Origin: Paenibacillus oralis
GTDB taxonomy: Bacteria; Bacillota; Bacilli; Paenibacillales; Paenibacillaceae
Assembly: GCF_003863965.1 (NCBI RefSeq)
Contig: NZ_RRCN01000001.1
Span: forward strand, 1,311,406 to 1,375,405
Direction: 5' to 3'
DNA: 64,000 bases
Shown here: positions 215-49,221 of the stretch, one piece after another
Layout: every line of letters starts with the position of its first letter
How positions within the stretch are numbered: the stretch's first letter is position 1
Program-made: the position numbers and the translations under genes
The notes under the pieces: generated by a model
The model's database searches: none
Told to the model about the DNA's origin: nothing
Seen by the model: the letters and a program-made list of their open reading frames with translations, nothing else

Positions 215-528
215 CACTAGCGTTGCACACAACTATTCTAACGGTTGCCACAACCGCTATTTGTCCCCAAAACGTTGATTTCAACTTCTAACGGTTGCCA
301 TGGCGCTTATTTAACCTAAACCCGGCTATTTCCACGTGGATTCAGGCAAATAACGACGCTCGTAACCGTTAGAATTTAGAAAATGGCTTTTTTCGCAAAA
401 TAGCCGTTGCTGCAACCGTTAGATTTCCGGCGGCCCCAATTTCGATTCGAAAACCTGAGCCATTGCGGAAATCCGGAAAGTATCAGGGCTGCAACTTGTC
501 TTGTGCAAGAGTTTATGCAACGCTAGTG
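215..528. repeat. N-family four-unit repeat (copy N1) bounded by 13-bp inverted repeats
   Basis: This fills most of the gap between the left-edge gene and the AraC regulator. Units beginning CTAACGGTTG start at 238 and 288; inverted units ending AACCGTTAG end at 372 and 422, giving spacing of 50/60/50. Homology with the second copy (57211-57468, opposite orientation) continues to about 504. CACTAGCGTTGCA at 215-227 and its complement at 516-528 enclose the whole block, and the same 13 bases occur in the small element at 62815-62900. No coding potential is seen. Confidence 0.85.
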
Positions 529-533
529 CCGTT

Positions 534-2828
534 TTACTGGCTAAGCTCGCGGTACCGGGTCGGCGTCATCCCCTCCAGCTTCTTGAAAATCCGGTTGAAA
601 TAGCTGTGCTGGTACCCGACCTGCTGGGCCACATCGCAAATCCGCAGCCCGGTGTCGCGCAGCAGTTCCTTGGCTTTCTCCATCCTCAGTTCGGTCAAAT
701 AATCGATGAAATTGTGCCCCGTTACCTGCTTAAACGACTTGCTCAGAAAAAACGGGTTCGTACCGACGTGATCGGCGCAGCTGTCGAGCGAAATGTCCTT
801 CATGTAGTTTTGCTGCAAATAAATCATCGCCTGCTCGATCAGCAGCTTGACCCCCGCATTCGCGCGGAGAGACAGCTCTTTGAGATAGGGGGCGAGCACT
901 TTTTCCCGGAACCAGGTCAGGATCAGCTCCAGCTCGCGGATTTGCGAAAGCGCCTCGTACAGATTGACGCCTTTAAACAGGCGATTCGGATGAATGCCGG
1001 ACTGCATGATGGCGTGCTGGATATGGCCAAGCAGCTGCAGCATCCCCTGCTGCACGTCGATCGTTTTGGCGCCTCTGGCGCTTAAGGCGGCGAGGAATTC
1101 ACCCAGCAGCCGGTACGCGTCCTCCTCCTGGCCGGTGCGCATCGCCTGAATCAGCTCGCGCTCGAGCGTAAACGAATAAGCCGGCTCCCCCTCCCCGGCC
1201 CCTTCGCGGTCCAGCTTCTCCATCTCGATGACCTGGTTTTCGCCTCCGACAGGGCGATAGCTCGCCGCCTGCCGCACCCCCTCGAACGCGAACGGAATGT
1301 CCGTAACCTGACCCACGGCCCGGCTGACCGCCACTGTGACGCGCATCTTCAAGATTAGGTTCACGGTCCGAATCAGCTCTTCGCTAAAGGCTTGAACTTC
1401 GGGCATATAGGACGTTTCGTTCGGCACCATCAGCACAATTCCGGTCGACAAATCATGAAAATGAATCGTATCGCACTGGCTGAAGCGCTGCGCGGCGAGC
1501 TCGCCGATAATGTTCGCCGCCGCGTAGGATACGAGCCCTTCGTCGCCGTTTTTGAATTTCCCGCCCAGGCTCGTGATCCCCGTCAGCTGAACATACAGCA
1601 AAACAAAGCGGCGGTTCTCCATCTCCCATTTAAACCGCTCCATCCGGCGGCGCAGCTCCTGCTCGGAATAGGCGTACAAATGACCGTGCAGCAGCTGGTG
1701 GAGAAAGCTCTCCTTCACATGGGGAAGCTGCTCCGCCAGCTTCCGCTGCAGGTCGTGGCTCTCCCAGTGCAAATTCAGCCACTGCCGCTCGATCAGCGCA
1801 AACTCGTCCTCCTGGCCCGCCGCGGCCGCATGCTCCGGCAGCAGCGTCTTGAACAGCCGGCGAATCGGCGAATACATCCGCCTGGACGCCAGCCAGGACA
1901 GCAAAGCGGCCAACATCAAGGCGCTGAAGCTCACGATAAAAATCAGCTTCGACACAAACATCACCGGCGCCGTGATGCTGGAAATCGGCGAAGCGGAGAC
2001 ATATACCCATTCATTGGCGATCCGGGAAAACGCGCCGTACGTGACGGCATAGGTTTTCCCCTCCCATGCGAAGACAAAAGAAGCTTTATCGGTGCTTCCC
2101 CGCTCGCGGATTTCCGCCCGCAGCCGCTTCACGAACGGCGAATCCGGCGCGCTGCCGCCGGCCGAGGCGAACAGCCCGCCGATCGTTCGAGCAAGAAACG
2201 TTTCCCCCACGTTATAAGGCGTCATCGTCTTCAGCATATCCGCCACTTTCCCGGTATCCATCCGGATCAGCAGCGCCCCGAACGGCTCCTGGCTGCCGCC
2301 GGGAATATGATGCACCAGCGTCAGCTCCTTTTCGCCGGGATCGCTTGGGTCAAAAGCCCACTCCGTCCAATAGGTGCTCTGCCGCGTCCTGATCAGCTTG
2401 TCGTACAGGCCGGTCACCGCCGCGGACTTGATCTCCCCGTATTCGGGATTAAACAGGACCGGCTCATCCCCGCCCAAATACAGCTCCACCTGCTTGATCA
2501 TCGTATTGGAGCCCTGCATGACGACCAGCGTTTTCGTAATGTCCCGCGCCCGCTCGAAATCGATGGTGAAATCGAGCCCGTCCAGGCTGTAATCGAATTT
2601 CGGATCAAACGCCCAATGGGACAGCAGCAGCTCCAGATTGGTCAACTGCTCGTCGATGTTGCCGGCCCGCTGCTCGATTTGCCGGTGATGCATCTGCAGC
2701 AGCTCGTTTTCCAGCCGCCCGCCGATCATGCCGTAGACAAGCGCCCCGGTGATGATTCCCGGAATGGCGGAGACCACCAGCATTAAGATCAGGTTTTTGC
2801 GGTAATACCGCCCTTTCCCCATTTTCAT
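534..2828 (-). CDS. Membrane-bound AraC-family regulator with extracellular sensor
   Basis: A 764-residue one-component regulator of the type common in Paenibacillus beside sugar importers. An N-terminal membrane helix (about residues 11-33) is followed by an extracytoplasmic Cache-like sensor to about 290, a second helix (about 293-315), a cytoplasmic middle region and a C-terminal AraC DNA-binding domain with two helix-turn-helices (about 665-762, including CDVAQQVGYQHSYFNRIFKK). It is the last gene of a minus-strand group headed by two permeases and a binding protein, so it probably senses their substrate and controls the group and the divergent beta-galactosidase. The ligand cannot be read from sequence. 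Confidence 0.88.
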   Translation of the reverse strand: MKMGKGRYYRKNLILMLVVSAIPGIITGALVYGMIGGRLENELLQMHHRQIEQRAGNIDEQLTNLELLLSHWAFDPKFDYSLDGLDFTIDFERARDITKTLVVMQGSNTMIKQVELYLGGDEPVLFNPEYGEIKSAAVTGLYDKLIRTRQSTYWTEWAFDPSDPGEKELTLVHHIPGGSQEPFGALLIRMDTGKVADMLKTMTPYNVGETFLARTIGGLFASAGGSAPDSPFVKRLRAEIRERGSTDKASFVFAWEGKTYAVTYGAFSRIANEWVYVSASPISSITAPVMFVSKLIFIVSFSALMLAALLSWLASRRMYSPIRRLFKTLLPEHAAAAGQEDEFALIERQWLNLHWESHDLQRKLAEQLPHVKESFLHQLLHGHLYAYSEQELRRRMERFKWEMENRRFVLLYVQLTGITSLGGKFKNGDEGLVSYAAANIIGELAAQRFSQCDTIHFHDLSTGIVLMVPNETSYMPEVQAFSEELIRTVNLILKMRVTVAVSRAVGQVTDIPFAFEGVRQAASYRPVGGENQVIEMEKLDREGAGEGEPAYSFTLERELIQAMRTGQEEDAYRLLGEFLAALSARGAKTIDVQQGMLQLLGHIQHAIMQSGIHPNRLFKGVNLYEALSQIRELELILTWFREKVLAPYLKELSLRANAGVKLLIEQAMIYLQQNYMKDISLDSCADHVGTNPFFLSKSFKQVTGHNFIDYLTELRMEKAKELLRDTGLRICDVAQQVGYQHSYFNRIFKKLEGMTPTRYRELSQ

Positions 2829-2861
2829 TTCCTCACCAACCGAATTAAGGTATATTCAAAA

Positions 2862-2875
2862 TGTAAACGCATACA
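2862..2875. promoter_or_regulatory. Possible catabolite-responsive (cre-like) site
   Basis: TGTAAACGCATACA just upstream of the AraC regulator differs from the CcpA cre consensus at one or two positions. The same 14 bases also occur inside the permease gene at about 6106-6119, so chance is possible. Confidence 0.25.
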
Positions 2876-3021
2876 TGGTAAAATGCAATACGAGTTACAT
2901 GATTTGGGAATATAAGTGCAGGAAGCTGCCCGCAATGGCTCGTCATGAACCTTTGGGGCAGCTGTATCCCATGCCTTTATCCGATGATCTTTTTACGGTG
3001 CGCTTGGTACGCTTGGTGTGC

Positions 3022-4608
3022 TTACGGGTTCTCCTTGCTGTAAAGCTCGTTCATTTCCTTGACGAGATCGTCTCCGCCGGACTTTTTCCACAGCTCAAAA
3101 GCGGATTTCAAGCCGGCCTCGTCGACTTGGCCAACGATAAACTTAATGCGGGCGTCGTTGATGATGTTGTCGAGCTGCTGCCCCTTTTGCGAATATACCG
3201 TGGAGATAAACGGCTCCGCCGGGTTGGAAACGATGTACTGTTCGTTCGCCTTCTGCACCTCAGCTTGCTTGACCCGCAGCGGCGTTTGCTTAACCTTTTT
3301 GGCACGGTCCTCGGGAATAAACGCGAGCATTTGGTTTAAGCCTTCGACCTCGGATTCCAGCTTCGCCGTATCTTTGATCGGCTCGATATAATCGTCCACC
3401 AGGCTATAGTGGGCGCCTTCCAGGCCGAAGTTAAGCATCGTTTGCATCTCCGGTTCGTTCAGCTGATCGAGAAAAGCGAGCACCCGCTTCAGTTCCGCTT
3501 CGGTTTTGACCGACGATTTCGGAATCGCCAAAATGCCGGAGTAACCGGAGGTGGGCAAGGTGTGGAGCTGGCCGTCCGTACCCGTGACGCCGCCCGTCAC
3601 GTCGATATAATGCTGATCCGGCTCGTCTTTGCCTTCCTTGGCCAGCGCGGCATGGATTTTGTCGTCGATCCGTGCGCCCACGTCCACGACATCCACGATA
3701 ACGCCCGCTTTATTGTTGACCACCGGGTCAACCCATTTCGCGCTGTCCATGACGGCAAAATCGGAGTTGATCAGCTTCTCGTCGTACAGCTTTTTCATAA
3801 ATTTCAGCGCTTCCAGATATTCGGGGTACTCGTGCTCGGGGACGAGCTGGCCGTCCTTCACCCCCCACTTGTTTGGCGCGCCGAACCACAGTTTGATGGT
3901 ATCGAAACCGCTGGCCCATTGACCGGTCCATTTGACCAAAACCATGCCGTACGTGTCGTCTTTTCCATTTCCGTCCGGATCCTGGTCCTTAAACGCCTTC
4001 AGCATATTATAAAAATCGTCGATCGTTTGCGGCGTCTGCAGCCCGACTTTATCGAGCCAATCCTTGCGGAAGGCGATTCCGTTGCGCCCGAGCACCCGTC
4101 CGCGGTAAAGCCCATAGTTTTTGCCTTCGATGGACGAGTTTTTCATGATGATCGGGTTCGCGCCGCTCAGGTTCTTATAGTCCTTCAGATATGGGCCTAC
4201 TTCCCAAAACGCCCCGGACTTGGCTGCGCCCACGAAGCTCGGGCCCTTGACGTCCCCGACGTAAATGATGGTCGGCAGTTTGCCGGAAGCAAGGGTGATG
4301 TTGAACTTGTCGGCGTAGGAGGCGTTCGGTACCCATTCGAAATGAATTTCCGTATTGGTCCGCTTTTCGATCTCCTCGACGACCAGCCCGTCGTCCTTCG
4401 GATAATTGGTCTTGAAAACCGGCAGCATGATCGACAATTTCAGGGGCCCATCCGACGAGGCGTTCCCTCCCCCGTCCGAGGTGGCGGCCGGAGACGCTCC
4501 CGGTCCCCCGCTTCCGCCGTTCCCCCCGCCGCATCCGGCTGCCGCGAACATCAGCGCCGCCGCCAGCGGCAGAGCGGCCCAGCGCTTCCAACTCGATTTT
4601 ACAGTCAT
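3022..4608 (-). CDS. Sugar-binding lipoprotein of ABC importer (LplA-like)
   Basis: A 528-residue extracellular solute-binding protein. The signal peptide ends in a lipobox, FAAAGC, with the acylated Cys at about residue 26, followed by a Gly/Ser/Ala-rich linker. The mature part resembles the large family-1 binding proteins (LplA/YtcQ type) that pair with LplB/LplC permeases for oligosaccharides. It lies 138 bases downstream of the LplC-like permease and upstream of the AraC regulator on the same strand. No ATPase is encoded nearby; these systems normally share an MsmX/UgpC-type ATPase encoded elsewhere. Confidence 0.9.
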   Translation of the reverse strand: MTVKSSWKRWAALPLAAALMFAAAGCGGGNGGSGGPGASPAATSDGGGNASSDGPLKLSIMLPVFKTNYPKDDGLVVEEIEKRTNTEIHFEWVPNASYADKFNITLASGKLPTIIYVGDVKGPSFVGAAKSGAFWEVGPYLKDYKNLSGANPIIMKNSSIEGKNYGLYRGRVLGRNGIAFRKDWLDKVGLQTPQTIDDFYNMLKAFKDQDPDGNGKDDTYGMVLVKWTGQWASGFDTIKLWFGAPNKWGVKDGQLVPEHEYPEYLEALKFMKKLYDEKLINSDFAVMDSAKWVDPVVNNKAGVIVDVVDVGARIDDKIHAALAKEGKDEPDQHYIDVTGGVTGTDGQLHTLPTSGYSGILAIPKSSVKTEAELKRVLAFLDQLNEPEMQTMLNFGLEGAHYSLVDDYIEPIKDTAKLESEVEGLNQMLAFIPEDRAKKVKQTPLRVKQAEVQKANEQYIVSNPAEPFISTVYSQKGQQLDNIINDARIKFIVGQVDEAGLKSAFELWKKSGGDDLVKEMNELYSKENP

Positions 4609-4746
4609 AAACGTTTTGACCTCCTTTTAATGGTATGAGTTTGTATTTGCCTATATTGCAAAATCATCGGACCTTCCAGGGAAAAGTCCATGAATTTACA
4701 CAAGGGTTTTTCAATCATGCGCTATTGATGCGATTCCGGCAGCCGG

Positions 4747-5628
4747 TCAGCCTTTGATCGAACCGAGCAGCACCCCTTTGGCGAAATGCTTTTGCAGGAA
4801 CGGATACACGCACAGGATTGGGATCGTGCCGACGACAATGACGGCCATCTTGATCGACTGCTCCGGCGGCTGCACGAAAGTCGGGTCCATGGAATTGATG
4901 TCCCCCGCCGATTGGGACAGCATGACGATCTGGCGCAGCATTACCTGCAGCGGCCATTTTGCCGGATCGTTGATGTACAGCAGCGCCGAAAAAAAGTTAT
5001 TCCAATGCCCGACGGCGTAAAACAACGTAAAGGTCGCCAGCACCGGCTTGGACAAGGGGAGCACGATGCGCCACAGCAAGCCAAGCTCATTGCAGCCGTC
5101 GATTTTGGCGGCGTCCTCCAGCTCCGGAGGGAGCTCCTGAAAGAAGTTTTTGACGATGATCAGGTTAAAAGCGCTGATCGCCCCGGGCAGGATGAGCGAA
5201 TTCAGCGTGTCCAGCAACTGGAGATCGCGGATGACCAGGTACGTGGGGATCATGCCGCCGCCGAACAGCATCGTAAAAATGACCAGATTCAGAATCAAGT
5301 TCCGGCCCATCAGGTTGCGCCGGGCCATCGGATAAGCCATCGTCACCGTAAAGAACAGATTGACGATCGTACCGACCAAGGTGACATAAATGGACACCCC
5401 GATACTGCGGACGATCGTGTCCGTCGAAAAAATAAACTTGTACGCGTCCAATGAAAACGTGCGCGGAATGAGAAACACGGCGCGTTTCGTAATTTCCGCA
5501 TCGGTGGCGAAGGAGCCGGAGATGACGAAGATGAACGGGAGAATCGCCAGCAGCCCAAAGAGGCTGAGGAAGACGTAGTTGAACACGTCAAACACCTTTT
5601 CGCCCGTGCTTTTGTATTGTTTGGCCAT
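4747..5628 (-). CDS. Sugar ABC transporter permease, LplC/YtcP type
   Basis: A 293-residue inner-membrane permease with six predicted helices. The ABC-coupling EAA loop is at about residues 185-205 (ELEDAAKIDGCNELGLLWRI), with conserved E-A-A-K-I-D-G-C. Residues 1-20 are hydrophilic and cytosolic, and the C-terminus KGVLLGSIKG is typical of the family. It begins 15 bases after the partner permease stops and is followed by the binding lipoprotein, forming one transcription unit. Confidence 0.92.
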   Translation of the reverse strand: MAKQYKSTGEKVFDVFNYVFLSLFGLLAILPFIFVISGSFATDAEITKRAVFLIPRTFSLDAYKFIFSTDTIVRSIGVSIYVTLVGTIVNLFFTVTMAYPMARRNLMGRNLILNLVIFTMLFGGGMIPTYLVIRDLQLLDTLNSLILPGAISAFNLIIVKNFFQELPPELEDAAKIDGCNELGLLWRIVLPLSKPVLATFTLFYAVGHWNNFFSALLYINDPAKWPLQVMLRQIVMLSQSAGDINSMDPTFVQPPEQSIKMAVIVVGTIPILCVYPFLQKHFAKGVLLGSIKG

Positions 5629-5643
5629 AGCCGCGCCTCCTTT

Positions 5644-6615
5644 TTAATAAAGTCCCGATTCCCCGGATTTTTTGGCCAGCCAGTTCGTGCCTAGCACGAG
5701 GGTGACGCCAATGACCGACTTGAACAAGCCGACCGCCGTACTGTAGCTGAACGCCCCCTGGGTGATCCCCAGCGTGTACACATACGTGTCGAACACTTCG
5801 GCCACCTCGCGGTTCAGCGCATTCATCATCAGATAAATCTGCTCGAAACCGTTGTCCAGAATCGTCCCCATGCGTAAAATAAGCAGGATCACGATCGTGC
5901 TGCGGATCGACGGCAGCGTAATGTGCCATAACTGCCGCCAGCGGCTTGCCCCATCGACGATGGCCGCCTCGTACTGCTCCACGTCCACCCCGGCCAGCGC
6001 CGCGAGGAAGATGATCGTCCCCCAGCCGCATTCCTTCCAAATCGTCTGCAGAATGATCAGGGGCCGGAACCAGTCCGGGCTGGACAGGAAATCGACCTTT
6101 TCACCTGTAAACGCATACAAAAATTCGTTAACCATGCCGCCTTCGGTCGTCAAAAACACGTAAGACAAACTGGCCACGATGACCATCGAAATAAAATGAG
6201 GGACATAAATCATCGTCTGGATCGTCCGTTTGAAGAAGGAGCGGCGGATTTCATTCAGAAGCAGAGCCAAAATGATCGGCGCCGGGAAGAAAAAAATCAG
6301 GTTATAAAGCGACAGCACCAGCGTGTTGCGCAGCAGCATAAAAAAGTCGGGGTTCTGGAAAAAGACCCTGAAGTGCTCGAACCCGACCCATTCGCTTTTC
6401 CAGAATCCGAGGAACGGCTGATAGTTTTTGAAAGCCAGCAGCACGCCCCACATCGGCACATATTTGAAAATGATAAAATACAGGACCCCGGGCGTCAGCA
6501 GCAGATACAGCCACTTGTCGCGCCTGAGGCGTCTCCATTTCGTTTCCCGTTTGCTTTTTATAGGCGGTTGATTCATTCGGATGCTTGCCGCAGCCGTTTG
6601 CTTCACCCCATTCAC
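5644..6615 (-). CDS. Sugar ABC transporter permease, LplB type
   Basis: A 323-residue permease with a basic cytoplasmic N-terminus (about 35 residues), six predicted helices and the coupling loop VDVEQYEAAIVDGASRWRQL in the middle of the protein. It is the first gene of the minus-strand importer operon and pairs with the following permease to form the channel. The promoter must lie in the 247-base gap shared with the divergent beta-galactosidase, which suggests co-regulation by the operon's AraC protein. Confidence 0.92.
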   Translation of the reverse strand: MNGVKQTAAASIRMNQPPIKSKRETKWRRLRRDKWLYLLLTPGVLYFIIFKYVPMWGVLLAFKNYQPFLGFWKSEWVGFEHFRVFFQNPDFFMLLRNTLVLSLYNLIFFFPAPIILALLLNEIRRSFFKRTIQTMIYVPHFISMVIVASLSYVFLTTEGGMVNEFLYAFTGEKVDFLSSPDWFRPLIILQTIWKECGWGTIIFLAALAGVDVEQYEAAIVDGASRWRQLWHITLPSIRSTIVILLILRMGTILDNGFEQIYLMMNALNREVAEVFDTYVYTLGITQGAFSYSTAVGLFKSVIGVTLVLGTNWLAKKSGESGLY

Positions 6616-6761
6616 CTCCCAAAACGTTCTGCCGAATCGTCAAGCCGGCTTCGCCGCCATTTGGCTGCGGGCTGCTCCGCCGGTTTGCGACCGATGTAGT
6701 CTCATTATGAAGCGGCCCTTCCTTTCCGGCAATTGGACTTTCTTGAACGCGCCTGCCGCCT

Positions 6762-6825: not shown

Positions 6826-6862
6826 CGCAACTGGCGCAGACTGACGGGGAGAGGTGGATTAG

Positions 6863-9729: not shown

Positions 9730-9779
9730 ACGGCATTTATCTCCCCAGGGGCCGGGGGCGCTGCAAAAGATGATATAAA

Positions 9780-9978
9780 GGAAAAAAATGTCGCTATTTT
9801 GGCGATATCCCCCATTTTGAGTGTAATAGAGGAATTTTATGCCGCTATTTTCTCCAGTCGCAGGGAAATGGCCGCTTTCGGTACCGTCCATTGGAAAATA
9901 AGAACAAAAAATTCCGCTAATGGAGATGAACGGGCTCCCTCCTGGAAAATAAGACCATAAAGTTCCGCTATTTTATCG
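9780..9978. repeat. G-family four-unit repeat (full copy)
   Basis: Two direct units with core CGCTATTTT (cores at 9792 and 9843) are followed by two inverted units starting GGAAAATAAGA (9893 and 9944). Spacing is 51/62/51 measured between unit centres. Units of about 25 bases match across the dyad (GGAATTTTATGCCGCTATTT against the complement of unit 4). It lies between the convergent spo0M and rlmN-type genes. Confidence 0.8.
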
Positions 9979-10144: not shown

Positions 10145-10322
10145 TGTAAAAGTGCATGCGGTTTTCGTGTAATGCCCCGAAAGTGACTCGTCAAATGCAA
10201 AAGTGCAGGCCGTTTTCGCCATTCTGATCAAATTTGTCTCTAAGCGCCATTTTCAAATGTACTTTTGCATCTCATCGCTCTAATAGCCGGAATTCGGATC
10301 ATTTCAACTGCACTTTTGCAAT
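10145..10322. repeat. T-family four-unit repeat, copy A
   Basis: Units TGTAAAAGTGCA (10145), TGCAAAAGTGCA (10196), then inverted TGTACTTTTGCA (10258) and TGCACTTTTGCA (10309), spaced 51/62/51. There is no open frame of interest. It lies between the 3' ends of spo0M and the rlmN-type gene. Confidence 0.88.
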
Positions 10323-19917: not shown

Positions 19918-20095
19918 TGCAAAAGTGCAGGCGATTTATGTCGAAGGCTCCCGAAAATGCCTATCGAACTGTAAAAGTGCAGTTCATTTTCTGTCATACA
20001 ACCATATTTTTCCAAATACACTCTACTCAACTGCACTTTTGCAGGCGAAGCGCCTCGGAACGGGAAAATAACCAACGATCAAATGCATTTTTGCA
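19918..20095. repeat. T-family four-unit repeat, copy B
   Basis: Units TGCAAAAGTGCA (19918), TGTAAAAGTGCA (19970), inverted TGCACTTTTGCA (20032) and TGCATTTTTGCA (20084), spaced 52/62/52. The stop codon of the shortened ABC ATPase frame (20027) falls inside this element. Confidence 0.88.
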
Positions 20096-20791
20096 TTTGA
20101 TCCCTTCTAAAAAGTACAAGCGGACACGGGAGCGTTCCAAAGGGAGCGTTCCAAAGGGAGCGTTCCAAAGCAAGTATACGATCGTATCCGCCATCGACAT
20201 CGCTTCCACCTGATCGTGCGTCACATACACAAAGGTGGTGCCCAACTTCTTGTGCAGCTCGATCAGTTCGATGCGCATCTGCACGCGCAGCTTGGCGTCC
20301 AGGTTGGAGAGCGGCTCGTCCATGAGGAACACGGACGGCTTCTTCACCATCGCGCGGGCCAATGCGACGCGCTGGCGCTGCCCGCCGGACAACGCGGACG
20401 GCTTGCGGTCCAAATAATCCAACAGGCCCACCGTCGCGCCGATGCTCTCGACCAGCCGGGCGCGCTCGGCTTTCGGCACTTTATTGTTTTTTAGGCCGAA
20501 TTCGATATTTTCGCGCACCGACATCGTGGGATAGATCGCGTAATTTTGAAACACCATCGCCACCCCGCGTTGCCCCGGCGGAATCCGTGAAACGTCCTTT
20601 CCGTTAATGAGCACCTGACCGGATGTTTGCGGGCCCAATCCCGCGATCATGCGCAGGAGCGTCGTTTTGCCGCAGCCGGACGGGCCGACCAGCACGGTAA
20701 ACGTACCGTCCGCGATCGTCAGATTGAGGTCCCTGATGACCGCGTTTTTCTCAAATGCCTTCGTCACATTCACAAATTGAATGGATGCCAA
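20027..20791 (-). pseudogene. UgpC/MsmK-type ABC ATPase lacking its C-terminal domain
   Basis: The first 208 or so residues are a normal sugar-importer ATPase: Walker A GPSGCGKTT, Q-loop VFQNYAIYP, signature LSGGQRQR, Walker B VFLMDEP and H-loop THDQVEAM. After MADTIV the sequence leaves the family and reads through three TTTGGAACGCTCCC repeats and T-family copy B, giving 254 residues instead of about 365. The OB-fold/TOBE regulatory domain and the end of the nucleotide-binding domain are missing. AGGAGG precedes the ATG, so the front is intact. It is probably non-functional, though a bare ATPase domain cannot be excluded. Confidence 0.85.
20121..20170. repeat. 15-bp tandem repeat, three copies
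   Basis: GGGAGCGTTCCAAAG occurs three times head to tail, exactly at the point where the ABC ATPase frame loses homology and next to T-family copy B. Confidence 0.9.
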
Positions 20792-23043: not shown

Positions 23044-23176
23044 GTTGGTTGATTAAAATAAATTAATTTATTTTGCAGAAGGTAAAAGTTGAGATTTGAA
23101 CGAGATCTATTGGATATTTCCAATGAGAGTCCAAAATTGCGATCGATGGCCGTCAATCTATTGGATTTTTCCAATG
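23044..23176. repeat. W-family repeat, half copy
   Basis: Units ATTGGATATTTCCAAT (23109) and ATTGGATTTTTCCAAT (23160) correspond to units 3 and 4 of the full copy at 30971-31152, including the spacer CCAAAATNGCGNTCGAT. A worn GTTGG at 23044 is where unit 2 is expected; unit 1 is not recognisable. It fills most of the 313-base gap upstream of bdhA. Confidence 0.75.
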
Positions 23177-30970: not shown

Positions 30971-31152
30971 ATTGGAACTATCCAATAGAATTGGAATTTT
31001 TCTGGCAAATACAAAAGCTTGATTGGATATTTCCAACAGATGAGGTTCGGGAGGGCGTAAAACGGGCAATTTGAGCGAATTCTATTGGATATTTTCCAAT
31101 GAGAGCCCAAAATGGCGTTCGATTTCCGTCCATCTATTGGATTTTTTCCAAT
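30971..31152. repeat. W-family four-unit repeat (full copy)
   Basis: Four self-complementary units: ATTGGAACTATCCAAT (30971), ATTGGATATTTCCAAC (31022), ATTGGATATTTTCCAAT (31084) and ATTGGATTTTTTCCAAT (31136), spaced 51/62/52. It lies between the convergent phnE and glutathione peroxidase genes. Partial copies are at 23044-23176 and 62757-62812. Confidence 0.88.
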
Positions 31153-36719: not shown

Positions 36720-36897
36720 TGCAAAAGGGCATGCGATTTTCGCCGAAATCCCTCGAAATGGGCGGTTCAACTGCAAATATGCAGTTCATTTCCGACTATA
36801 AGCTACTTTTTTATCCAATAGCCGCAAATGAGATGTATTTTTGCACTTCAACCGCTCAAAAGCAAAATATTTACAGAAATTCAAATGTACTTTTGCA
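36720..36897. repeat. T-family four-unit repeat, copy C
   Basis: Units TGCAAAAGGGCA (36720), TGCAAATATGCA (36772), inverted TGTATTTTTGCA (36834) and TGTACTTTTGCA (36886), spaced 52/62/52. It lies between the convergent MFS and lacI-type genes. Sequence has drifted but spacing is exact. Confidence 0.87.
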
Positions 36898-41550: not shown

Positions 41551-41613
41551 GTCACAACGCAATAGTAGCACACTTGTCTTGAGGTCGGCAATACATATTT
41601 TTCTAAAAAACAA

Positions 41614-41635: not shown

Positions 41636-41662
41636 AGGTTAATCCATAAAATCCAGCGCTAT

Positions 41663-42679: not shown

Positions 42680-42705
42680 GAGGGCCGCCCCTTCCCCGGA
42701 TTCTA

Positions 42706-43107
42706 TTAAATAATCAGGCTGCTCACGGCAAAGGCCATGCCGATGAACACCAGGCAAAGCAGCGTGCCGACGGCGACGTTGCCCTTCTTGAGCTGGTCGG
42801 AGACTTTGAACCCGGGCGTCACCAACTCAAAAATCCAATACGAAGCGATCAAGCACACGTATCCCACAGCAAACCATAACATCATGTGCCAAATCGAGGT
42901 GTTCGTATAGGCCGCTATCCCGAGAATAATCGCCGTACCCATGAACTTCCCGCCGAGCGCCAAAGCCACGGCCACATTTCCTTTTTTCAGCTCTTCCATG
43001 TCGCGATAGGGCGTCATCCAATTAAAAATGATCATCCCCAACAACTGGAGCAAGATCATTACGATCACGCTTACGACAAGATTAATGACTACCGTCAATT
43101 CGCCCAC
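42706..43107 (-). CDS. DUF350 membrane protein
   Basis: A 133-residue protein with four predicted helices in two similar halves (each starting about 14 residues before a KKGNVAVA/KKGNVAVG motif), as usual for DUF350 (E. coli YjfL). Function unknown; in other bacteria the family travels with glutathionylspermidine-synthase-like ligases and K+ channels, as here. Its start overlaps the upstream lipoprotein gene by 13 bases. Confidence 0.85.
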   Translation of the reverse strand: MGELTVVINLVVSVIVMILLQLLGMIIFNWMTPYRDMEELKKGNVAVALALGGKFMGTAIILGIAAYTNTSIWHMMLWFAVGYVCLIASYWIFELVTPGFKVSDQLKKGNVAVGTLLCLVFIGMAFAVSSLII

Positions 43108-43739
43108 CCCCGAAATTTCGCATACGCCAAATCATAATCGGCAAAATCATGCACTTCCTCCAGCACAACCGACGCGGTCTTGGCCTGCTTTAAAGCCGTA
43201 TACCGCGCGTCGTCGATCGGCTGCTTAATGCGGTTGCCGGTCGGCAGCTCCAACACGGCAAAATTCCGGGTCTGCCCCTTGTATTCCGTTTTGTACACGC
43301 CGACCAAATCAACGTCCGTCGTCACGGACACCTTGAGTTCGGCCAGGTCTTTTTCGGCGGTGGCCTGATCGGGGTAAGACTTCAGCGTCGTCCAGGAGGA
43401 CAAACGCACTTCGTTTTTCTGGTTCTCGTCGGTCGTCAGCTCGGCATCCATGAACTGGAGCACCCAAATCTTGTCGCCCGTCGCATAGTTATTGTCGTTC
43501 GGCAGCAGATCGTTATCGGGTAAAATCGTCATGTCGCTTCCGACCAAGTCGCCAACCGTCCCCTCGACGAGCCGGTAATCCCACGGCACGCGCGACGTCG
43601 TTAAACTCGTTTCCGCCCCTCCGGCATCCGTGGATAACACGCTATTTTGCCCACCGCAGGCGCTTAGCGCCAGCACGGCCAAAACGGCGACGGCCGCCGC
43701 CAGGAAACGCCGGACCCAGGCTCTATTTTGCAGCTGCAT
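43095..43739 (-). CDS. Lipoprotein of unknown function in ligase/channel operon
   Basis: A 214-residue protein. A basic N-terminus and signal peptide end in LALSAC (acylated Cys near 28). The mature domain is alpha/beta with no family I can name; it includes DKIWVLQFMDAELTTDENQK and TRNFAVLELPTGNRIKQPI. It starts one base after the ligase gene ends and overlaps DUF350, so it is translationally coupled to both. Probably attached to the outer face of the membrane. Confidence 0.75.
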   Translation of the reverse strand: MQLQNRAWVRRFLAAAVAVLAVLALSACGGQNSVLSTDAGGAETSLTTSRVPWDYRLVEGTVGDLVGSDMTILPDNDLLPNDNNYATGDKIWVLQFMDAELTTDENQKNEVRLSSWTTLKSYPDQATAEKDLAELKVSVTTDVDLVGVYKTEYKGQTRNFAVLELPTGNRIKQPIDDARYTALKQAKTASVVLEEVHDFADYDLAYAKFRGWAN

Positions 43740-43740
43740 T

Positions 43741-44973
43741 TTATTTCACTCCCAACGCGATAAAATGACTGGCGTTGCCGGTAATCGGCCCGCCGGCCCG
43801 GCCAAGCAAACCGCAGGGCGTTCCGTTCAGGACGAACAGGCCGGTCAACAAATGAAGTTCGCCTTCCGCCGTTTCGATGCGTGCCAGTTCCGCTCTTTTT
43901 TGGTACACCGAGGGGAACAGCACGCTGCTGTCAAAGCCCTCCCGATCCTCCAGCTCAAGCTGCCCTTCCGCGTCAAACATGCGCACGGAACCGCCCTCGC
44001 GCCCAAACATCGATTTGGACACGAAGCTGCCCGAGAAGACCGGTTTATTATAGGTCGGCAGGACGTAGCGGGCGATCGCCTCGCGCTCTTCCGCGTCGAA
44101 CAGCAGGCCCAGCTCATACAGCCCCCAAGCGGCGGCGAGCAGGCCTTTGGATTGCAGCAAAATGCTGTGCGGCCCATTAAACAAGGTTAGCCGTCCGGTT
44201 TCGATCGCGTAGCTCAGCGCTTCGCCCCCATCGTCCACCGCCATCCACTCTTTGGGGTACAAAGCAAACATCCGTTCAATCGCGCGGCCGTCTTTATTTT
44301 TCAGAACACCTTCATCCACCCAGAGCTCCAGGCAATCCTCGTAAAAAAGCTCCAGCCCGCTGTGTCTGCCCAGCGCTTCGATCGTCCCCGAGTCCTCAAG
44401 ATGGCGGCCGTATTCCATGCAAGCCACGGTATCCGGGCGTTCGAGCGCCCAAGCCTCCTTAACCAGCTCTTTCATCCGCATGTTGGGCGAAGCGTACCCG
44501 GCCTGCTCCAGCACCCACGGCGTGGCGATCGAGGCTTCCACGTAACCCGTCGGCGTATCGGCGTTCAGCTCCAGCAGCTTGATGGTGCCGTCATTCGCCA
44601 CAGCGAAATCAAACCGCGCGTAACGGCTGATCAGCCCCGGCTCCGGCAGCGGCAGATCATCGAGCATGTTCCACAGGATCGGCGGAATCCCGATCAGCTC
44701 ATACAAATCGCGGCGGCGATGTACGTAACGGACGGTTTTGTCCAAAATGCGCCAGATGGCGGTCGCCGCTTGCTCCAGCTCTTCATTGACGGCTCTGGGC
44801 ATCAGGACGATCTGGTCGATCCAGTATTGCTCTTCTTCGATATTCGCCCACGTAAATCCGAGCTCATGCAGCCGCTTCACCCGTTCGCTCCGGTCCGGAT
44901 GGGGCCGGCCGATCACTTCGAACACGCCGCCGTTCATTCCGCCAGCCGCCCCGTTGGTCATCCCGCCGCTCAT
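43741..44973 (-). CDS. Glutathionylspermidine-synthase-like ATP-grasp ligase
   Basis: A 410-residue protein corresponding to the synthetase half of glutathionylspermidine synthase, without the amidase half, as in YgiC/YjfC of E. coli. Visible signatures are RYARFDFAVANDGTIKLLEL followed by NADTPTGYVEAS, PLNxFN-like LTLFNGPHSILLQSKGLLA, and VLPTYNKPVFSGSFVSKSMF with GREGGSVRMF (ATP-grasp lysine and glycine loop). YgiC/YjfC-type enzymes probably form amide bonds to peptides, but their substrates are unknown. The ATG overlaps the stop of the preceding Gly-Gly-tailed protein gene by four bases. Confidence 0.88.
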   Translation of the reverse strand: MSGGMTNGAAGGMNGGVFEVIGRPHPDRSERVKRLHELGFTWANIEEEQYWIDQIVLMPRAVNEELEQAATAIWRILDKTVRYVHRRRDLYELIGIPPILWNMLDDLPLPEPGLISRYARFDFAVANDGTIKLLELNADTPTGYVEASIATPWVLEQAGYASPNMRMKELVKEAWALERPDTVACMEYGRHLEDSGTIEALGRHSGLELFYEDCLELWVDEGVLKNKDGRAIERMFALYPKEWMAVDDGGEALSYAIETGRLTLFNGPHSILLQSKGLLAAAWGLYELGLLFDAEEREAIARYVLPTYNKPVFSGSFVSKSMFGREGGSVRMFDAEGQLELEDREGFDSSVLFPSVYQKRAELARIETAEGELHLLTGLFVLNGTPCGLLGRAGGPITGNASHFIALGVK

Positions 44974-45746
44974 CCGCCGAAAAACCCTTTGCCGCCGCCG
45001 GACTTCGAGCCGGAAATCGAGCTTTTGCTCGAAGAAGAACCGGAGGACGTGCTGGAAGACGAGCCGAGTCCGCTCGATTTGCCGCCGATTCCCCCAGCCT
45101 GCGACGAGGTGGAGCGTCTGACGATCGACCCGGTGGATGAGGTCGAGGTTTTCGGACGCACGACGGAACCGGCCACCTGCTTGTTCTGGAACGTTCCGCT
45201 GGAATACGTGCGCGGAGCGTAAGGCGTATTGGTGCCCGCGTAATAACCGCGGTGGTTGTCGTACCAGCGGCTCGACGAATAAAACGAACCGTTGTTGAAC
45301 AGCAGATGGTACAGCAGCATGTCATCCCAGCCGAATCCTGAGCTGTAATGGTTGACGACGGTGGTGCCGCCGGAGGAGCCGGAAGCGCCGTCCGTCCCCG
45401 TACCGCTGCCGGCTTCGGCGCCGCCCTGCTGCTCTTCGTCCGCCGGAAGCGGAATGCTCCAGTCTACGTTTTTGTCAAAATACTGCTTCACTTCATCCGT
45501 CGACCATTCGACCAGCTTCGGTCCGTCCCCTGCCGTATCACCGCTGGTGGCCGAAACTCCGGGAGCGGGAATCAAAAAGGCGTTGGCCAGCAGGGCGATC
45601 CCCAGCGATGTGGACAATACGCGCAGCGGCTTGCCGTCCGGAGTGAAAAATTTAGAGCCGGCCGGCTCTTCCGTTGGCGACAATGGCGATATGGTCTCCG
45701 TCGGTTGCATTTGCTTTTTCGTTACTGCTTCCTCTTCTTTCGCCAA
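44970..45746 (-). CDS. Ser/Gly-rich membrane-anchored protein ending in Gly-Gly
   Basis: About 258 residues. A short acidic cytoplasmic segment, one hydrophobic helix (about 42-58, STSLGIALLANAFLIPAPGV), an acidic/Gly-rich region, an aromatic-rich centre (GWDDMLLYHLLFNNGSFYSS) and a Ser/Gly/Lys-rich tail ending GGGKGFFGG. Composition and neighbourhood recall YgiB/YjfM (DUF1190) proteins that accompany YgiC/YjfC ligases, but I cannot prove homology. TTG start at 45746 behind AAGGAGGG. The Gly-Gly tail and four-base overlap with the ligase gene make it a candidate ligase substrate. Confidence 0.72.
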   Translation of the reverse strand: MAKEEEAVTKKQMQPTETISPLSPTEEPAGSKFFTPDGKPLRVLSTSLGIALLANAFLIPAPGVSATSGDTAGDGPKLVEWSTDEVKQYFDKNVDWSIPLPADEEQQGGAEAGSGTGTDGASGSSGGTTVVNHYSSGFGWDDMLLYHLLFNNGSFYSSSRWYDNHRGYYAGTNTPYAPRTYSSGTFQNKQVAGSVVRPKTSTSSTGSIVRRSTSSQAGGIGGKSSGLGSSSSTSSGSSSSKSSISGSKSGGGKGFFGG

Positions 45747-45774
45747 ATCCGAACCCTCCTTACGAAAACATCCT

Positions 45775-45990
45775 TTAATCGTGCGCGATCGGAATGAGCA
45801 GAAGCTCCAATTTCCCTTCGTCAACGTTCAGACGGCCTTCCACCGCTTCATATTCGCGGTTGCCGACAACGAGATAATTCACATGCTCAAGCGCGGCGAC
45901 CATGTTGGCGCTCCAGGTGCGCTCTTCCAGCTCCCGCAGCTCCCCGTCCGGCATTTTCTCATATAATTTCACGCTCATGCCTTGGTCCAA
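45775..45990 (-). CDS. Small protein heading the ligase/channel operon
   Basis: About 71 residues from TTG at 45990 (GAAAGGGTGAG six bases upstream). Mainly beta strands and charged loops (SVKLYEKMPDGELRELEERT, VNYLVVGNREYEAVEGRL); no helix or signal. I do not recognise a family. A longer frame from 46044 would run into the repeat element at 46020-46186 and is less likely. It is the first gene of the operon that ends with the K+ channel. Confidence 0.6.
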   Translation of the reverse strand: MDQGMSVKLYEKMPDGELRELEERTWSANMVAALEHVNYLVVGNREYEAVEGRLNVDEGKLELLLIPIAHD

Positions 45991-46019
45991 TCGACTCACC
46001 CTTTCCATATAAAATGCGT

Positions 46020-46186
46020 GTTCAAAAAGTCGGCTTTTCAGCACCGAGAAAGTTGGATGAAGCTAGGGACTGAGTAGCGGAGCGTAGGTCGGGCTACGTG
46101 AGCAACGGAAGGCCCGGCTGAATTCAAGATTCGACGTCGAATCTACTTCATGACCAACTTCGTGATCAAAAGATGACTTTTTGAAC
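46020..46186. mobile_element. M-family element, short copy (MITE-like)
   Basis: A 167-bp element bounded by GTTCAAAAAGTC (46020-46031) and GACTTTTTGAAC (46175-46186), with shared internal stretches TTTTCAGCACCGA, GTTGGATGAAGC, GGCTGAATTCAAGATTCGA and CTTCGTGATCAAAAG. A longer copy is at 54002-54279. No coding capacity. It lies just upstream of the ligase/channel operon and could carry or displace its promoter. Confidence 0.8.
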
Positions 46187-46330
46187 TACCTCTTTAACAT
46201 ACTATCTAATGATACGTAATGGAGCCTCTCCAGTTTCATGAAAGATCAGGAAAAACCAAGGGTAAGGGATGAATAAAAATTTTAGATTCCACAGGTGATT
46301 AAACTTGCGGAATATCTCCATCATCAAGCT

Positions 46331-46359
46331 TTTACGTAACCCCTGCTTGTGGGTATAAT
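46331..46359 (+). promoter_or_regulatory. Strong sigma-A-type promoter
   Basis: TTTACG (46331-46336), 17-base spacer, TATAAT (46354-46359). No gene follows; a compact structured segment ending in a terminator does, so it most likely drives a small RNA. Confidence 0.65.
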
Positions 46360-46365
46360 GTGTTT

Positions 46366-46501
46366 AGGAAATACGCAAAATGAAAAATACCGCGATGCTG
46401 GATCGCGGTAGACAAGGAACGATGGGCAACCACGGCGAGATTTTCAATCAAATAAACAGAAAAACCACCGGATGGCGCCAACCTAATCCCGGTGGTTTTT
46501 C
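46366..46501 (+). ncRNA. Candidate small RNA of about 135 nt
   Basis: Begins at the predicted start of the promoter at 46331-46359. It contains a perfect nine-bp hairpin TACCGCGAT-GCTGG-ATCGCGGTA (46388-46410) and ends with the terminator AAAAACCACCGG / CCGGTGGTTTTT (46460-46500). There is no open frame with a ribosome site of useful length. A hydrophobic small frame (46483-46596) lies antisense to its 3' end. No known RNA family is recognised. Confidence 0.55.
46460..46500. terminator. Bidirectional terminator at the end of the small RNA
   Basis: AAAAACCACCGG (46460-46471) pairs with CCGGTGGTTTTT (46489-46500) around a 17-base loop. A-tract and T-tract make it work on both strands. Confidence 0.85.
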
Positions 46502-46596
46502 TTGTCTTGTGCCTGCTTGCGGGCGGTAAGTAACGTGGTAATTCCGGTCAGTATCCCGATCAGCTTCGTCACCCCGTCCAATAGCTTTAAGCACAA
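46483..46596 (-). CDS. Possible 37-residue hydrophobic peptide antisense to the small RNA (weak)
   Basis: TTG at 46596 opens a frame with a hydrophobic centre (LLDGVTKLIGILTGITTLLT) and a basic tail (ARKQAQDKKNHRD); its stop lies in the loop of the shared terminator. This is the layout of type I toxin/antitoxin pairs. Against it: no ribosome site, no promoter, and a terminator-like hairpin (46608-46621) directly upstream. Confidence 0.25.
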   Translation of the reverse strand: MCLKLLDGVTKLIGILTGITTLLTARKQAQDKKNHRD

Positions 46597-46602
46597 TTTT
46601 AA

Positions 46603-46621
46603 GAAAAACGCCTGACGGCGT
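46603..46621 (-). terminator. Short terminator hairpin
   Basis: ACGCC-GTCA-GGCGT followed by TTTTCTT on the minus strand; same core as the terminator at 41614-41635. It would stop transcripts coming from the transporter gene. Confidence 0.6.
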
Positions 46622-46686
46622 CCTTTACTGGCTCTGACTTCTACTTTGGAGCGATTGGAGGATCTTCCTAAACTTTGGGCGCTGCT

Positions 46687-46871
46687 CTAACGGACACCAG
46701 CGACCTTATCCGCCCATTTCCCGGGTATTTCCCAGTCTAACGGACACAGGCGATCCTATTTCGCTCTAAACCCGTTCATCCGGGCCGATTTGAGGTAAAT
46801 AAGGTCTTCTGTGTCCGTTACATTTTATAATCCTCCGTTTTTTTGAAAATAACGGCTCTGGTGTCCCTTAG
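46687..46871. repeat. P-family four-unit repeat (full copy)
   Basis: Direct units starting CTAACGGACACCAGCG (46687) and CTAACGGACACAGGCG (46737) are followed by inverted units ending TGTGTCCGTTAC (46821) and TGGTGTCCCTTAG (46871). Spacing is 50/60/50. The first bases TCTAACGG are shared with the N family. The remainder of the gap to 47093 shows nothing I can name. Confidence 0.85.
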
Positions 46872-47093
46872 CCCCCAGATTCTCTCCCCTCTCTACCTGC
46901 GCATCGCCCTCTACCATGCCCGCAAGTAGGCAGAAAATCGCCTCCCTGATCCCAAAATAAACCTGAGTTCGATTTTATCAACATCGATGTAGGCATCCCC
47001 GGCGTTCTCCCGTCTTTCCCAATCGACACAACCGGTACGGTCCGACCAGCCGTTGTGCAGCACGCAACGCGAACCGGGAGAACCGCTCGTTAG

Positions 47094-48518
47094 CTACACC
47101 AAAAACATCGCCACCACCGTCGTTACGGCCAGCCCGACCAGCACTGGCTTCAGGTTGCGCCGTGCCAGTTCGAATGGGCTGACGCCGCAAATCGCCGCGG
47201 CCGGGATCAGCGCCCACGGGATCAGCGTGCCGCCGCCGACCCAGATGGCGGCCACCTGGCCGAGCGCGGTCAGCGTCGCCGTCCCCGAGCCGATGGCGGT
47301 GCCGAACAGCCCCGCGATTGAGCCGGCCAGCGAAATGCCCGAGAAGCCGGAGCCGTCCAGGCCGGTGATCGCTCCGGTGACGGCCAGCGTAATCGCGCCG
47401 ACGATGCCGTTCAGCGGTACGACGCCGGCCAGGGCCGCGCCAAGGTCATTGACGATGCCGTGCGACGTTTTGGGCAGGACCTCGCCGAACAGTTCCGCAA
47501 ACGCGGCATCGCCGAGGTAAAAAAAGGCGGCGATCGGAATGACCGGGCCGAACACCTTAAAGCCGAAGACAAGCCCGTCGATCAGATAGGACGTGACCTT
47601 CTCCAGGCCGCGGTTTTGGTGAGCCAGCAGCGTCACCGCGATCAAAATCAGCACCGCCGTCCCGCCCACAAGCGCCGTCGCATCGCCGCCTTGAAGGTGG
47701 AGCAGGAGCATTGCCACCACGTCGGCGGCGAACAGCAGCGGAATCAGGATGGCGAGCCATTGGCGGGCTTTGGGGTGAAGCGCGGCCGGCTCCACTTTGC
47801 CGGGTGCATGTTCATCCCCCAGCACGCCGCCCGCGCCGGTTTTCGCTGCGGCTAGCCCGTCTCTCCAGACCCCGTTTTGCATGTCCCGGCGCATCATCCA
47901 AAAGGCCGTGACGGTGCTCACCAGGCCCATCACGATCACCAGCGGCACGCTCGCCGCCATGACGCTGCCGACCGGGAGCCCGGCGGCATCCGCCGTCAAT
48001 TTCGGCGCGCCTTGAATAATATAGTCGCCGGACAAGGCGATGCCATGTCCGAACAAATTCATCGCGACGGCCGCGCCAAGCGCCGGCAGCCCGACGCGGA
48101 GCGCCACCGGAAGCAGGACGGCCCCGATCAGGGCGACCGCCGGCGACGGCCAGAAGAAAAAAGAAGTCACCATCATAATGAAGCCGATGCCCCAATACGC
48201 CATCGAAGGCGTGCGCAAAAAACGCGTGAGTGGCGCCACCATCGTTTCGTTGATGCCGGTCCGCATCAGCACCCGGCTCATCGCCACGATGATCGAGATG
48301 ATCATGATCGTACTCATCAACTCTTTGGTGGCGTAGATAAACGAATTGAAAATGCCCGATACCGAACCGCTGAGCGTTCCCGTCGCAAGCAATCCCAGCG
48401 CAAATATGCCGGTCACACAAATCATTGTCGTATCCCGCCGCTTGATCATCAGCACCAAAATGAACACGATGAAGGCCAGATACACGTAATGAATCGCCGA
48501 TAGCTCTATTCTCATCAT
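47094..48518 (-). CDS. Polytopic membrane transporter of unassigned family
   Basis: About 474 residues and 11-13 helices in two similar halves; each half carries a Gly/Ser-rich re-entrant-like segment (WPSPAVALIGAVLLPVALRV and FGTAIGSGTATLTALGQVAA), as in ion-transporter-superfamily anion or dicarboxylate carriers. The central loop is hydrophilic. ATG at 48518 follows AAAGGAG. It lies next to the regulator of the proline-degradation genes, so an amino or organic acid substrate is possible, but the family is not certain. Confidence 0.65.
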   Translation of the reverse strand: MMRIELSAIHYVYLAFIVFILVLMIKRRDTTMICVTGIFALGLLATGTLSGSVSGIFNSFIYATKELMSTIMIISIIVAMSRVLMRTGINETMVAPLTRFLRTPSMAYWGIGFIMMVTSFFFWPSPAVALIGAVLLPVALRVGLPALGAAVAMNLFGHGIALSGDYIIQGAPKLTADAAGLPVGSVMAASVPLVIVMGLVSTVTAFWMMRRDMQNGVWRDGLAAAKTGAGGVLGDEHAPGKVEPAALHPKARQWLAILIPLLFAADVVAMLLLHLQGGDATALVGGTAVLILIAVTLLAHQNRGLEKVTSYLIDGLVFGFKVFGPVIPIAAFFYLGDAAFAELFGEVLPKTSHGIVNDLGAALAGVVPLNGIVGAITLAVTGAITGLDGSGFSGISLAGSIAGLFGTAIGSGTATLTALGQVAAIWVGGGTLIPWALIPAAAICGVSPFELARRNLKPVLVGLAVTTVVAMFLV

Positions 48519-48639
48519 GATGTCACGCTCCTTTTCCAAGCATATTGTGCTATATGCTATGCAGGTGCCCAAGCAAGAGTTCGACCCATGGCGCTAACTG
48601 GTGTTTGGTTGTGTCGAAGTTTGGCGTTCGAAGTATGAT

Positions 48640-49020
48640 GGCAGTGAGGTAAGAGTGAAGTAGGAATGCGGCAGGAGTGAGATAGGAATGAGGTTGCAGA
48701 AAGGCGGCAATGAGGTAGCGTGAGGTAATAGTAGATAAGGTAACAGTAGATAGTAAGGTAACAGTAAATATAATGAGGTAACAGTAGTTAGCAGGGTGAA
48801 AGAGTCAAGATGGCAAGTAGATAAGGAGGAGTGAAGTCCAGTGAAATGTGAAACTCAGTAAAATGTGAAACATCCTGCGAGGAGAAAGCAACGTCAGCGA
48901 AGTAGCAACATCCTGCCAAATAGTAACATACTGCGAAGTAGCCATATCCTGCAAACTAGCATCATCTTGCGAAGTAGCCATCATCCTGCAAATTCATCAT
49001 CTTGTGAAGTAGTAACATTC
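48640..49020. repeat. Degenerate tandem-repeat region
   Basis: Two neighbouring low-complexity arrays: GAGGTAACAGTAGATA-like units (about 48680-48800) and GCGAAGTAGCAACATCCTGC-like units of roughly 20 bases (about 48890-49015). They directly precede T-family copy D. No credible gene. Confidence 0.7.
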
Positions 49021-49044
49021 TGTGAGGTCCAGAATTCCACGAAA

Positions 49045-49221
49045 TGCAAAAGTGCATGCGGATTTTGTCAAAACCTCCCGAAACGGGCCAACGAAATGCA
49101 AAAGTGCATTTCAATTCCGCCAAAAACATCGAAAATTTCTGAAACGGCCCCGAACAACTGCACTTTTGCAGGCGATCATCCTTGAAGGGGGCATTCGCGG
49201 AAAATGAGATGTACTTTTGCA
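49045..49221. repeat. T-family four-unit repeat, copy D
   Basis: Units TGCAAAAGTGCA (49045 and 49097), inverted TGCACTTTTGCA (49159) and TGTACTTTTGCA (49210), spaced 52/62/51. This copy has the best-preserved units and ends with GCATTTGATCC, shared by copies B and C. Confidence 0.9.

Follow-up and report, generated by a model that had tools for sequence, protein, structure and literature searches.

Dispersed elements of Paenibacillus oralis keep a four-unit arrangement while their unit sequences vary

What could hold the layout of a dispersed DNA repeat constant while its sequence changes? The question is raised by a 64-kb stretch of the Paenibacillus oralis genome (contig NZ_RRCN01000001.1, positions 1,311,406 to 1,375,405; 64,000 nucleotides, hereafter the window), in which nine intergenic elements, assigned to the families T, N, W, G and P, each consist of four short units, two direct followed by two inverted (Table 1). 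Dispersed bacterial repeats are usually taken for dead mobile elements. An initial annotation made from the sequence alone proposed instead that selection acts on the arrangement, for example through a DNA-binding protein, a mobilising enzyme or a folded RNA. Here we show that an arrangement of about 51/62/51 bp is held across the order while the unit sequence shifts in concert, and that the units change more slowly than the spacers between them. Among the three kinds of explanation the evidence favours a protein, and we infer that it acts on double-stranded DNA.

To detect elements independently of their unit sequence, we scanned the window and 400 kb of the same genome for quartets of units, permitting outer spacings of 24–120 and middle spacings of 24–130. 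This search yielded 40 quartets, 34 of them with both outer spacings at 50–52, while one Markov shuffle per stretch yielded none. As about half of these first 400 kb had been selected around T matches, the scan was repeated on an unselected sample of 20 stretches of 20 kb each, placed at round coordinates along the main contig (400 kb). Here, 20 quartets were found (17 with both outer spacings at 49–53), compared to none in three rounds of shuffles. The density of about one element per 23 kb at the strict threshold extrapolates to ~320 elements on the 7.57-Mb contig. Eight of the nine window elements were recovered at their annotated positions, and the P element only at a lower threshold. Likewise, direct T–T distances between 20 and 130 bp fell at 49–53 in 152 of 186 cases (all loci then collected), and the inner T distance was 61–63 in 66 of 69, the remaining three being 52, 60 and 65. 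Both the quartets and the T distances support the proposal that the spacing is tighter than chance.

The units themselves are imperfect palindromes of roughly 20–24 bp and exceed the 12-mers that are conspicuous within them. Those of N and G combine TAACGG with three bases specific to the family, then a loosely conserved middle and (C/T)TATT. In P, the units read TA(A/G)NGG, mostly TAGCGG, at the same distance from TATT as in N and G (consensus set n = 20, including at least two chance quartets). T units comprise TGCAAAAGTGCA with partly complementary flanks, and the W units of the window follow ATTGG-N6 or 7-CCAAT. Some units are perfect palindromes in the relative G038 (TAACGGACACGCGTGTCCGTTA). 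The five families had been regarded as unrelated in unit sequence, which does not apply to N, G and P.

Measured between 12-mers, the middle spacing appears to differ between families (62 in T, 75–77 in N and G, 52 in W). Measured from centre to centre, it is 62 in T, N and G and about 62 in W, whereas P stands at 72, a value obtained by arithmetic from 12-mer spacing and unit ends and one helical turn longer than in the other window elements. The spacing of 50–52/60–62/50–52 bp ascribed to every element therefore describes eight of the nine.

To assess the prevalence of the elements, we compared matches of each pattern with matches of the same pattern read backwards. The P. oralis genome (G000) contains 409 T units when one mismatch is allowed (22 reversed), 71 T pairs with 46–58 spacing permitted (0 reversed) and 330 matches of TAACGG-N43..46-TAACGG (2 reversed). 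T pairs occurred in 12 of 59 genomes searched, P. oralis included, all within the genus and with very different spacers. A full T quartet with an inner distance of 61–63 was present in 18 of 20 stretches from seven other species, the two stretches without one being L201 (G019) and L216 (G007). At least 30 TAACGG pairs were found in 33 of 98 genomes, among them members of other families of the order. In G038, G039, G044 and G046, which represent three other families of the order, all 47 plus-then-minus TAACGG pairs among the matches listed had an inner distance of 61–63; this distance is not fixed by the search pattern, the coordinates were copied by hand, and pairs without a partner among the matches listed are uncounted. 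A strict four-unit TAACGG pattern, which forces the geometry, matched at least 109 stretches of the genome collection; the best 80 of these came from Paenibacillus (70), Cohnella (4), Fontibacillus (2), Saccharibacillus (1) and 'Paenibacillaceae bacterium' (3). The same pattern matched only two stretches of viral_contigs (L336 and L337).

In G036, a member of another family, 12 consecutive palindromes follow each other in steps of 51, 62, 51, 60, 51, 61, 51, 60, 52, 59 and 51. This tandem array lies at about 2190–2830 of L129, and its palindromes are of the TGTAGCGATATCGCTAC and TGTAGCGTTTCCGCTAC types. The TAACGG geometry rests on pair searches across genomes together with the unit positions of the window elements. 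Occupancy of a single site can also vary: 3' of the rlmN ortholog, G010 carries a T element, G006 a diverged T element and G014 four units of a different type (AACTG...CAGTT); G012 has no element there.

We then followed individual sites between P. oralis and its relative G010, whose syntenic DNA is roughly 91% identical. Among 62 P. oralis quartets (664 kb), G010 held an element at 23, was empty or short at 13 and had something 'other' at 9, and 17 were unmapped; some of the 62 (e.g. 1015315, 1116488, 1148270 and 1312560) resemble chance matches in GC-rich or coding DNA. Some of the short G010 loci retain a single unit or half an element. In 20 orthologous same-family pairs, units were identical at 1259 of 1376 positions (91.5%), spacers at 1959 of 2290 (85.5%) and flanks at 1438 of 1735 (82.9%; units vs spacers, Fisher p = 7e-8). 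This set skips two pairs with less than 70% core identity and keeps one weak P pair at 73%. By family, identity of units and spacers was 95.8 vs 84.8% in T, 96.0 vs 85.5% in W and 94.0 vs 92.1% in G (one pair). The N units hardly vary at their outer bases (positions −10 to −2 and +9 to +12), while their middle is free. When changes were polarised by the family consensus, those on the G010 branch affected 3 of 336 sites in T and 2 of 175 in N, and those on the P. oralis branch 11 of 336 and 3 of 175, compared to about 24 T and 13 N changes per branch predicted at half the spacer rate. An indel difference of at most 2 bp was seen in 12 of 20 cores vs 0 of 20 flank sets, a comparison in which one pair differs from the identity set, the likely chance quartet 1015315 is included and flank indels are inflated by the free end gaps of the aligner.

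These data bear on the least probable explanation, namely that the pattern reflects chance or the common descent of one sequence that kept its length. Members of a family are indeed related copies, but their four-unit plan has been kept despite spacer divergence, and the plan is common to several unit families and genera. Orthologous spacers drift at nearly the flank rate around units that are 91.5% identical, other families of the order show the 50/62/50 plan with other spacer sequence, and shuffles contain no quartets. We consider this explanation extremely improbable and already contradicted. Chance spacing and recent copying were the two outcomes named beforehand as speaking against selection on the arrangement; the results contradict both and so uphold that proposal. 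Judged from sequence, the arrangement and the unit sequence at each site appear to be under selection.

Unit sequence is also shared within elements. We compared the triplet after TAACGG in 87 distinct elements from 47 organisms. Two units carried the same triplet in 57.7% of pairs when they belonged to one element, in 48.6% when they came from different elements of a genome and in 13.1% when they came from different genomes. Permuting units within genomes (organisms with at least two elements) never reached the observed agreement (0/2000). Agreement was highest for units 1 and 3 (0.74), the other pairs ranging from 0.51 to 0.57. Such concerted triplets are what a trans-acting reader with a genome-specific taste would leave, whereas a fixed RNA partner would leave another pattern.

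A structured RNA, in which the units of a transcript pair (1 with 4, 2 with 3) or fold as single hairpins, could account for two features of T: long hairpins are predicted for it, and its plus strand shows an excess of G–T over A–C mismatches (42 vs 15 within the units of 46 elements). Most other results speak against it. The units can pair since they are alike, but the spacers barely do, and their pairing hardly exceeds that of other registers (0.47 at best vs 0.32–0.40 for the first, 0.50 vs 0.25–0.43 for the centre). Neither strand folds better than the other (the plus strand is lower in 14 of 28), the mismatch asymmetry is absent in G (80 G–T, 72 A–C), and T elements are mixed in their orientation to genes. 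Moreover, the most similar units vary by family: 1 and 4 in N, 1 and 2 in P, and 1 and 3 in P. faecis as well as in the mean of the 87 TAACGG elements. No Rfam family matched the window at gathering thresholds. We therefore set RNA hairpins aside as improbable, since folding, pairing registers and mismatch asymmetry give them no support; the asymmetry of T remains unexplained.

Gene context was assessed for 60 elements with a home-made gene caller: 31 lie between co-directional, 17 between convergent and 12 between divergent genes, in proportion to intergenic DNA, and five overlap the end of a called open frame. With no clear preference among the 60, and with 21 T elements mixed in orientation to genes, a gene-context or 3'-end role was rejected. 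A related proposal is that the elements act as two-way terminators or insulators, with hairpin and TATTT units of which two face each direction. The unit orientation would suit stopping transcription from both sides, and several copies adjoin terminator-like hairpins as judged by eye, the young G copies described below lying next to the A-tracts of such hairpins. However, those separate hairpins are already present beside the elements, divergent genes are about as frequent (12 of 60) as intergenic DNA predicts, and termination does not need a fixed spacing. Even more than a folded RNA, this function seems to us very unlikely.

Our leading reading, held with just under even confidence, is that the elements are docking arrays for four copies of one putative sequence-specific DNA-binding protein. 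Four partly palindromic sites, two per orientation, would be separated, centre to centre, by about 5, 6 and 5 helical turns, with 7 in the middle of P. Four protein copies, probably as dimers, would then occupy one face of the DNA and assemble into a compact complex with two-fold symmetry. The idea that all units face the same side was part of the initial annotation and would agree with the inner distances of 62, of 52 in one T copy and of 72 in P. What the complex does is a guess: it might help to organise the chromosome, as a bridge or through local topology. This guess is based on the intergenic position of the arrays, on their density of about one per 23 kb at the strict threshold and on the lack of a favoured gene context. 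The cores are mobile as well, and vehicles of more than one kind carry them.

A more ambitious version strikes us as possible but doubtful. The arrays may belong to a hitherto undescribed, order-wide chromosome-organising system in which a fast-evolving, genome-specific binder, or a few paralogs, places four dimers on hundreds of intergenic phased arrays and coevolves with its sites. Under the same joint doubt, the unit types could be genome 'dialects' of this coevolution, namely TAACGG-ACA, -TTG, -CGG and -AAC, plus the TGCAAAAGTGCA and ATTGG types.

Several results weigh against docking arrays. The inner T distances of 60 and 65, each seen once, fall off whole-turn steps, and the same-face idea stays an inference. 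The contrast between whole units and spacers is small in N (90.5 vs 87.9%) and P (87.1 vs 83.4%), and a pair entered the comparison only if both copies qualified as quartets, a bias that favours intact units. The triplets of one element resemble each other only somewhat more than do those of different elements in the same genome. Many G010 loci hold nothing, a remnant or something else (the 13 empty or short, 9 'other' and 17 unmapped of 62), so that single copies are dispensable. T also shows a strand dependence: besides the mismatch excess described above, 45 of 62 exact marker matches on G000:C1 place its plus strand on the lagging-sense side (p = 5e-4; replichores assigned by GC skew). Within the fetched stretches alone this figure is 19 of 29 (p = 0.14), and N shows no bias in its orientation to replication (16 of 32). 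A symmetric double-stranded site predicts neither the asymmetry nor the bias, which seem to fit neither docking nor selfish elements well.

Finally, no binding protein was found among the candidates examined, a Myb-like protein and the genes beside tandem arrays. The MYB site YAAC(G/T)G had prompted the former, but Myb-like (PF13921) matches were absent in 8 of 33 site-rich genomes and present in G018 and G023, which have no site excess. The genes beside tandem arrays were ordinary and unshared (10 flanking proteins, six loci).

The main rival to docking arrays is that the elements are selfish and non-autonomous, resembling REPINs (REP doublets forming hairpins, where REP stands for repetitive extragenic palindrome) or miniature inverted-repeat transposable elements (MITEs). 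Here, a transposase would read the four sites, the geometry would be selected for mobility, and constraint in place would reflect recent common sources or conversion between copies. Such elements would account for the spread and for the genome-specific unit types. We regard this as rather unlikely, although the cores do move. A young G subfamily of about 350 bp with arms, whose eight compared cores are 90–96% identical, is absent from four G010 sites (914073, 1013164, 1451023 and 1512932); another copy, 1429653, is present in both genomes. N element 1 has terminal repeats and a probable 9-bp target duplication (206–214 and 529–537, 8 of 9 identical). Its annotation as a single element at 215–528 thus merges two layers, an N core at about 239–421 and the longer terminal-repeat element in which this core is embedded. 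A second N copy is arranged alike, and terminal inverted repeats with target duplication are probable around an N copy other than N element 1 and around P. Copies of TCAAAATG enclose N copy 1140256, which apparently sits within a W-type element, and one intergenic slot (1192217) holds a G element in P. oralis and P-type units in G010. Inspected by eye, T copies resemble mosaics built from spacer modules. Genome-specific units also resemble the coevolution of REPs with their REP-associated tyrosine transposases (RAYTs) reported in PMC2817692.

Against selfish elements stands the lack of common ends: inspection by eye of T and young G copies revealed no terminal inverted repeats with target duplication, N core 1531716 has no outer arms, and the sequence outside the core differs in length and kind among N, P, G and T. 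Units that are constrained at orthologous sites while their own spacers drift would be unexpected of dead copies. From these comparisons, the vehicle seems to vary while the core stays constant, with more than one kind of vehicle involved.

RAYT mobilisation as a general cause was rejected after a PF01797 (Y1_Tnp) profile search of P. oralis and 97 relatives, in which most of the site-rich genomes had no match. Y1_Tnp was unmatched in 22 of the 33 genomes with at least 30 TAACGG pairs, G010 among them. P. oralis itself has only two partial Y1_Tnp matches and no intact RAYT that we could find, and the 3-kb loci around both partial matches contain no T, N, G, P or W unit. Units bracketing a gene at two loci were considered as an autonomous element and rejected, as both loci proved to hold the same P element, interrupted by a Mutator-family insertion. 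In these two copies (G000:C1, about 1186038–1187716 and 1221802–1223454), a Mutator-family (PF00872) transposase, which we take to be IS256-like, lies between units 2 and 3. They show probable 8-bp duplications (CCTTTCGC and CCTTTCGA) and outer repeats of the CTAGTAGA type.

Table 1 Elements of the window with their unit positions and spacings. Coordinates are window positions; 12-mer positions are starts.
Feature	Position	Strand	Units or size	Spacing (bp)	Corresponding place in G010
Left outer terminal inverted repeat of N element 1, CACTAGCGTTGCA	215..227	+	13 bp		
N element 1, four-unit core	239..421	+	centres 249, 299, 361, 411	50/62/50	
Right outer terminal inverted repeat of N element 1, TGCAACGCTAGTG	516..528	-	13 bp		
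P element	9776..9970	+	centres about 9786, 9837, 9909, 9960	51/72/51	one unit only
T element	10145..10320	+	12-mers 10145, 10196, 10258, 10309	51/62/51	ortholog
T element	19918..20095	+	12-mers 19918, 19970, 20032, 20084	52/62/52	
W element	30971..31152	+	centres about 30978.5, 31029.5, 31092, 31144	51/62/52	single unit
T element	36720..36897	+	12-mers 36720, 36772, 36834, 36886	52/62/52	
G element	46688..46870	+	centres 46698, 46748, 46810, 46860	50/62/50	
T element	49045..49221	+	12-mers 49045, 49097, 49159, 49210	52/62/51	ortholog
N element 2, four-unit core	57285..57467	-	centres 57295, 57345, 57407, 57457	50/62/50	

Additional features of the window surround these elements. The terminal repeats of N element 1 recur without a core at 62817–62898 (82 bp end to end), beside a partial W element. 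Incomplete W and P elements, detected as repeats of complete copies, occur at 23117–23176, 62761–62814 and 59864–59899. An 18-bp tandem repeat of the GCGAAGTAGCAACATCCT type (48897–49021) directly adjoins the T element at 49045 and is longer in G010. A UgpC/MalK-like ABC ATPase frame on the minus strand (20027–20791) terminates within the T element at 19918–20095; its best profile matched only to position 208 of 357, as if the 3' part of the frame had been lost to the T element or to a deletion. A separate repeat family (TGTTCAAAAAGTCGG...) with inverted copies at 46019–46054, 53987–54026 and 54245–54294 stands outside the four-unit set.

Docking arrays lead to the prediction that a single protein, or a small number of them, will occupy hundreds of phased arrays in each genome. 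Such a binder, if found, would be either a nucleoid organiser of a large bacterial group or a new kind of mobilising enzyme, and the elements offer a natural series for protein–site coevolution. Among titles and abstract openings in one open library, we found no description of the elements, which does not show their absence from print.

Multi-operator and resolvase-type sites place dimers at spacings of whole turns. The elements share with them partly palindromic sites of dimer size and an approximately whole-turn spacing, but differ in their high-copy dispersal, in having four sites with two-fold symmetry and in that no recombinase or regulator gene was recognised next to them in the few neighbourhoods examined. 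Like MITEs (Bcr1, NEMIS, ERIC), they are short, non-coding, intergenic and dispersed, and one N copy has terminal repeats with a probable target duplication. Unlike in MITEs, conservation concerns an internal core of four sites, which is also found without those ends or with other ends, and the N terminal repeats in turn occur coreless, as at 62817–62898.

The closest likeness is to REPs, bacterial interspersed mosaic elements (BIMEs) and REPINs. BIMEs and REPINs are arrays of small palindromes with genome-specific sequence (PMC2817692, PMC3733652, PMC2267715), and BIMEs are reported to bind proteins (PMC2817692, PMC3733652). Our elements likewise have small palindromic units, high copy number, intergenic location, regular arrays of opposed orientation and genome-specific sequence. 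They depart from this group in that no GTAG (or CGTC) tag is present in the T, N, G and P consensus or in the window W units, in contrast to the G036 units, which start GTAGCG, and in that neither an intact RAYT in P. oralis nor a Y1_Tnp match in most site-rich relatives was found. By RAYT and GTAG, they would thus not be members of the group, although they appear to work like BIMEs and REPINs. What further distinguishes them is the arrangement of four units, direct-direct-inverted-inverted at about 51/62/51, the coexistence of several unit families in one genome, and units that are more conserved in place than their spacers.

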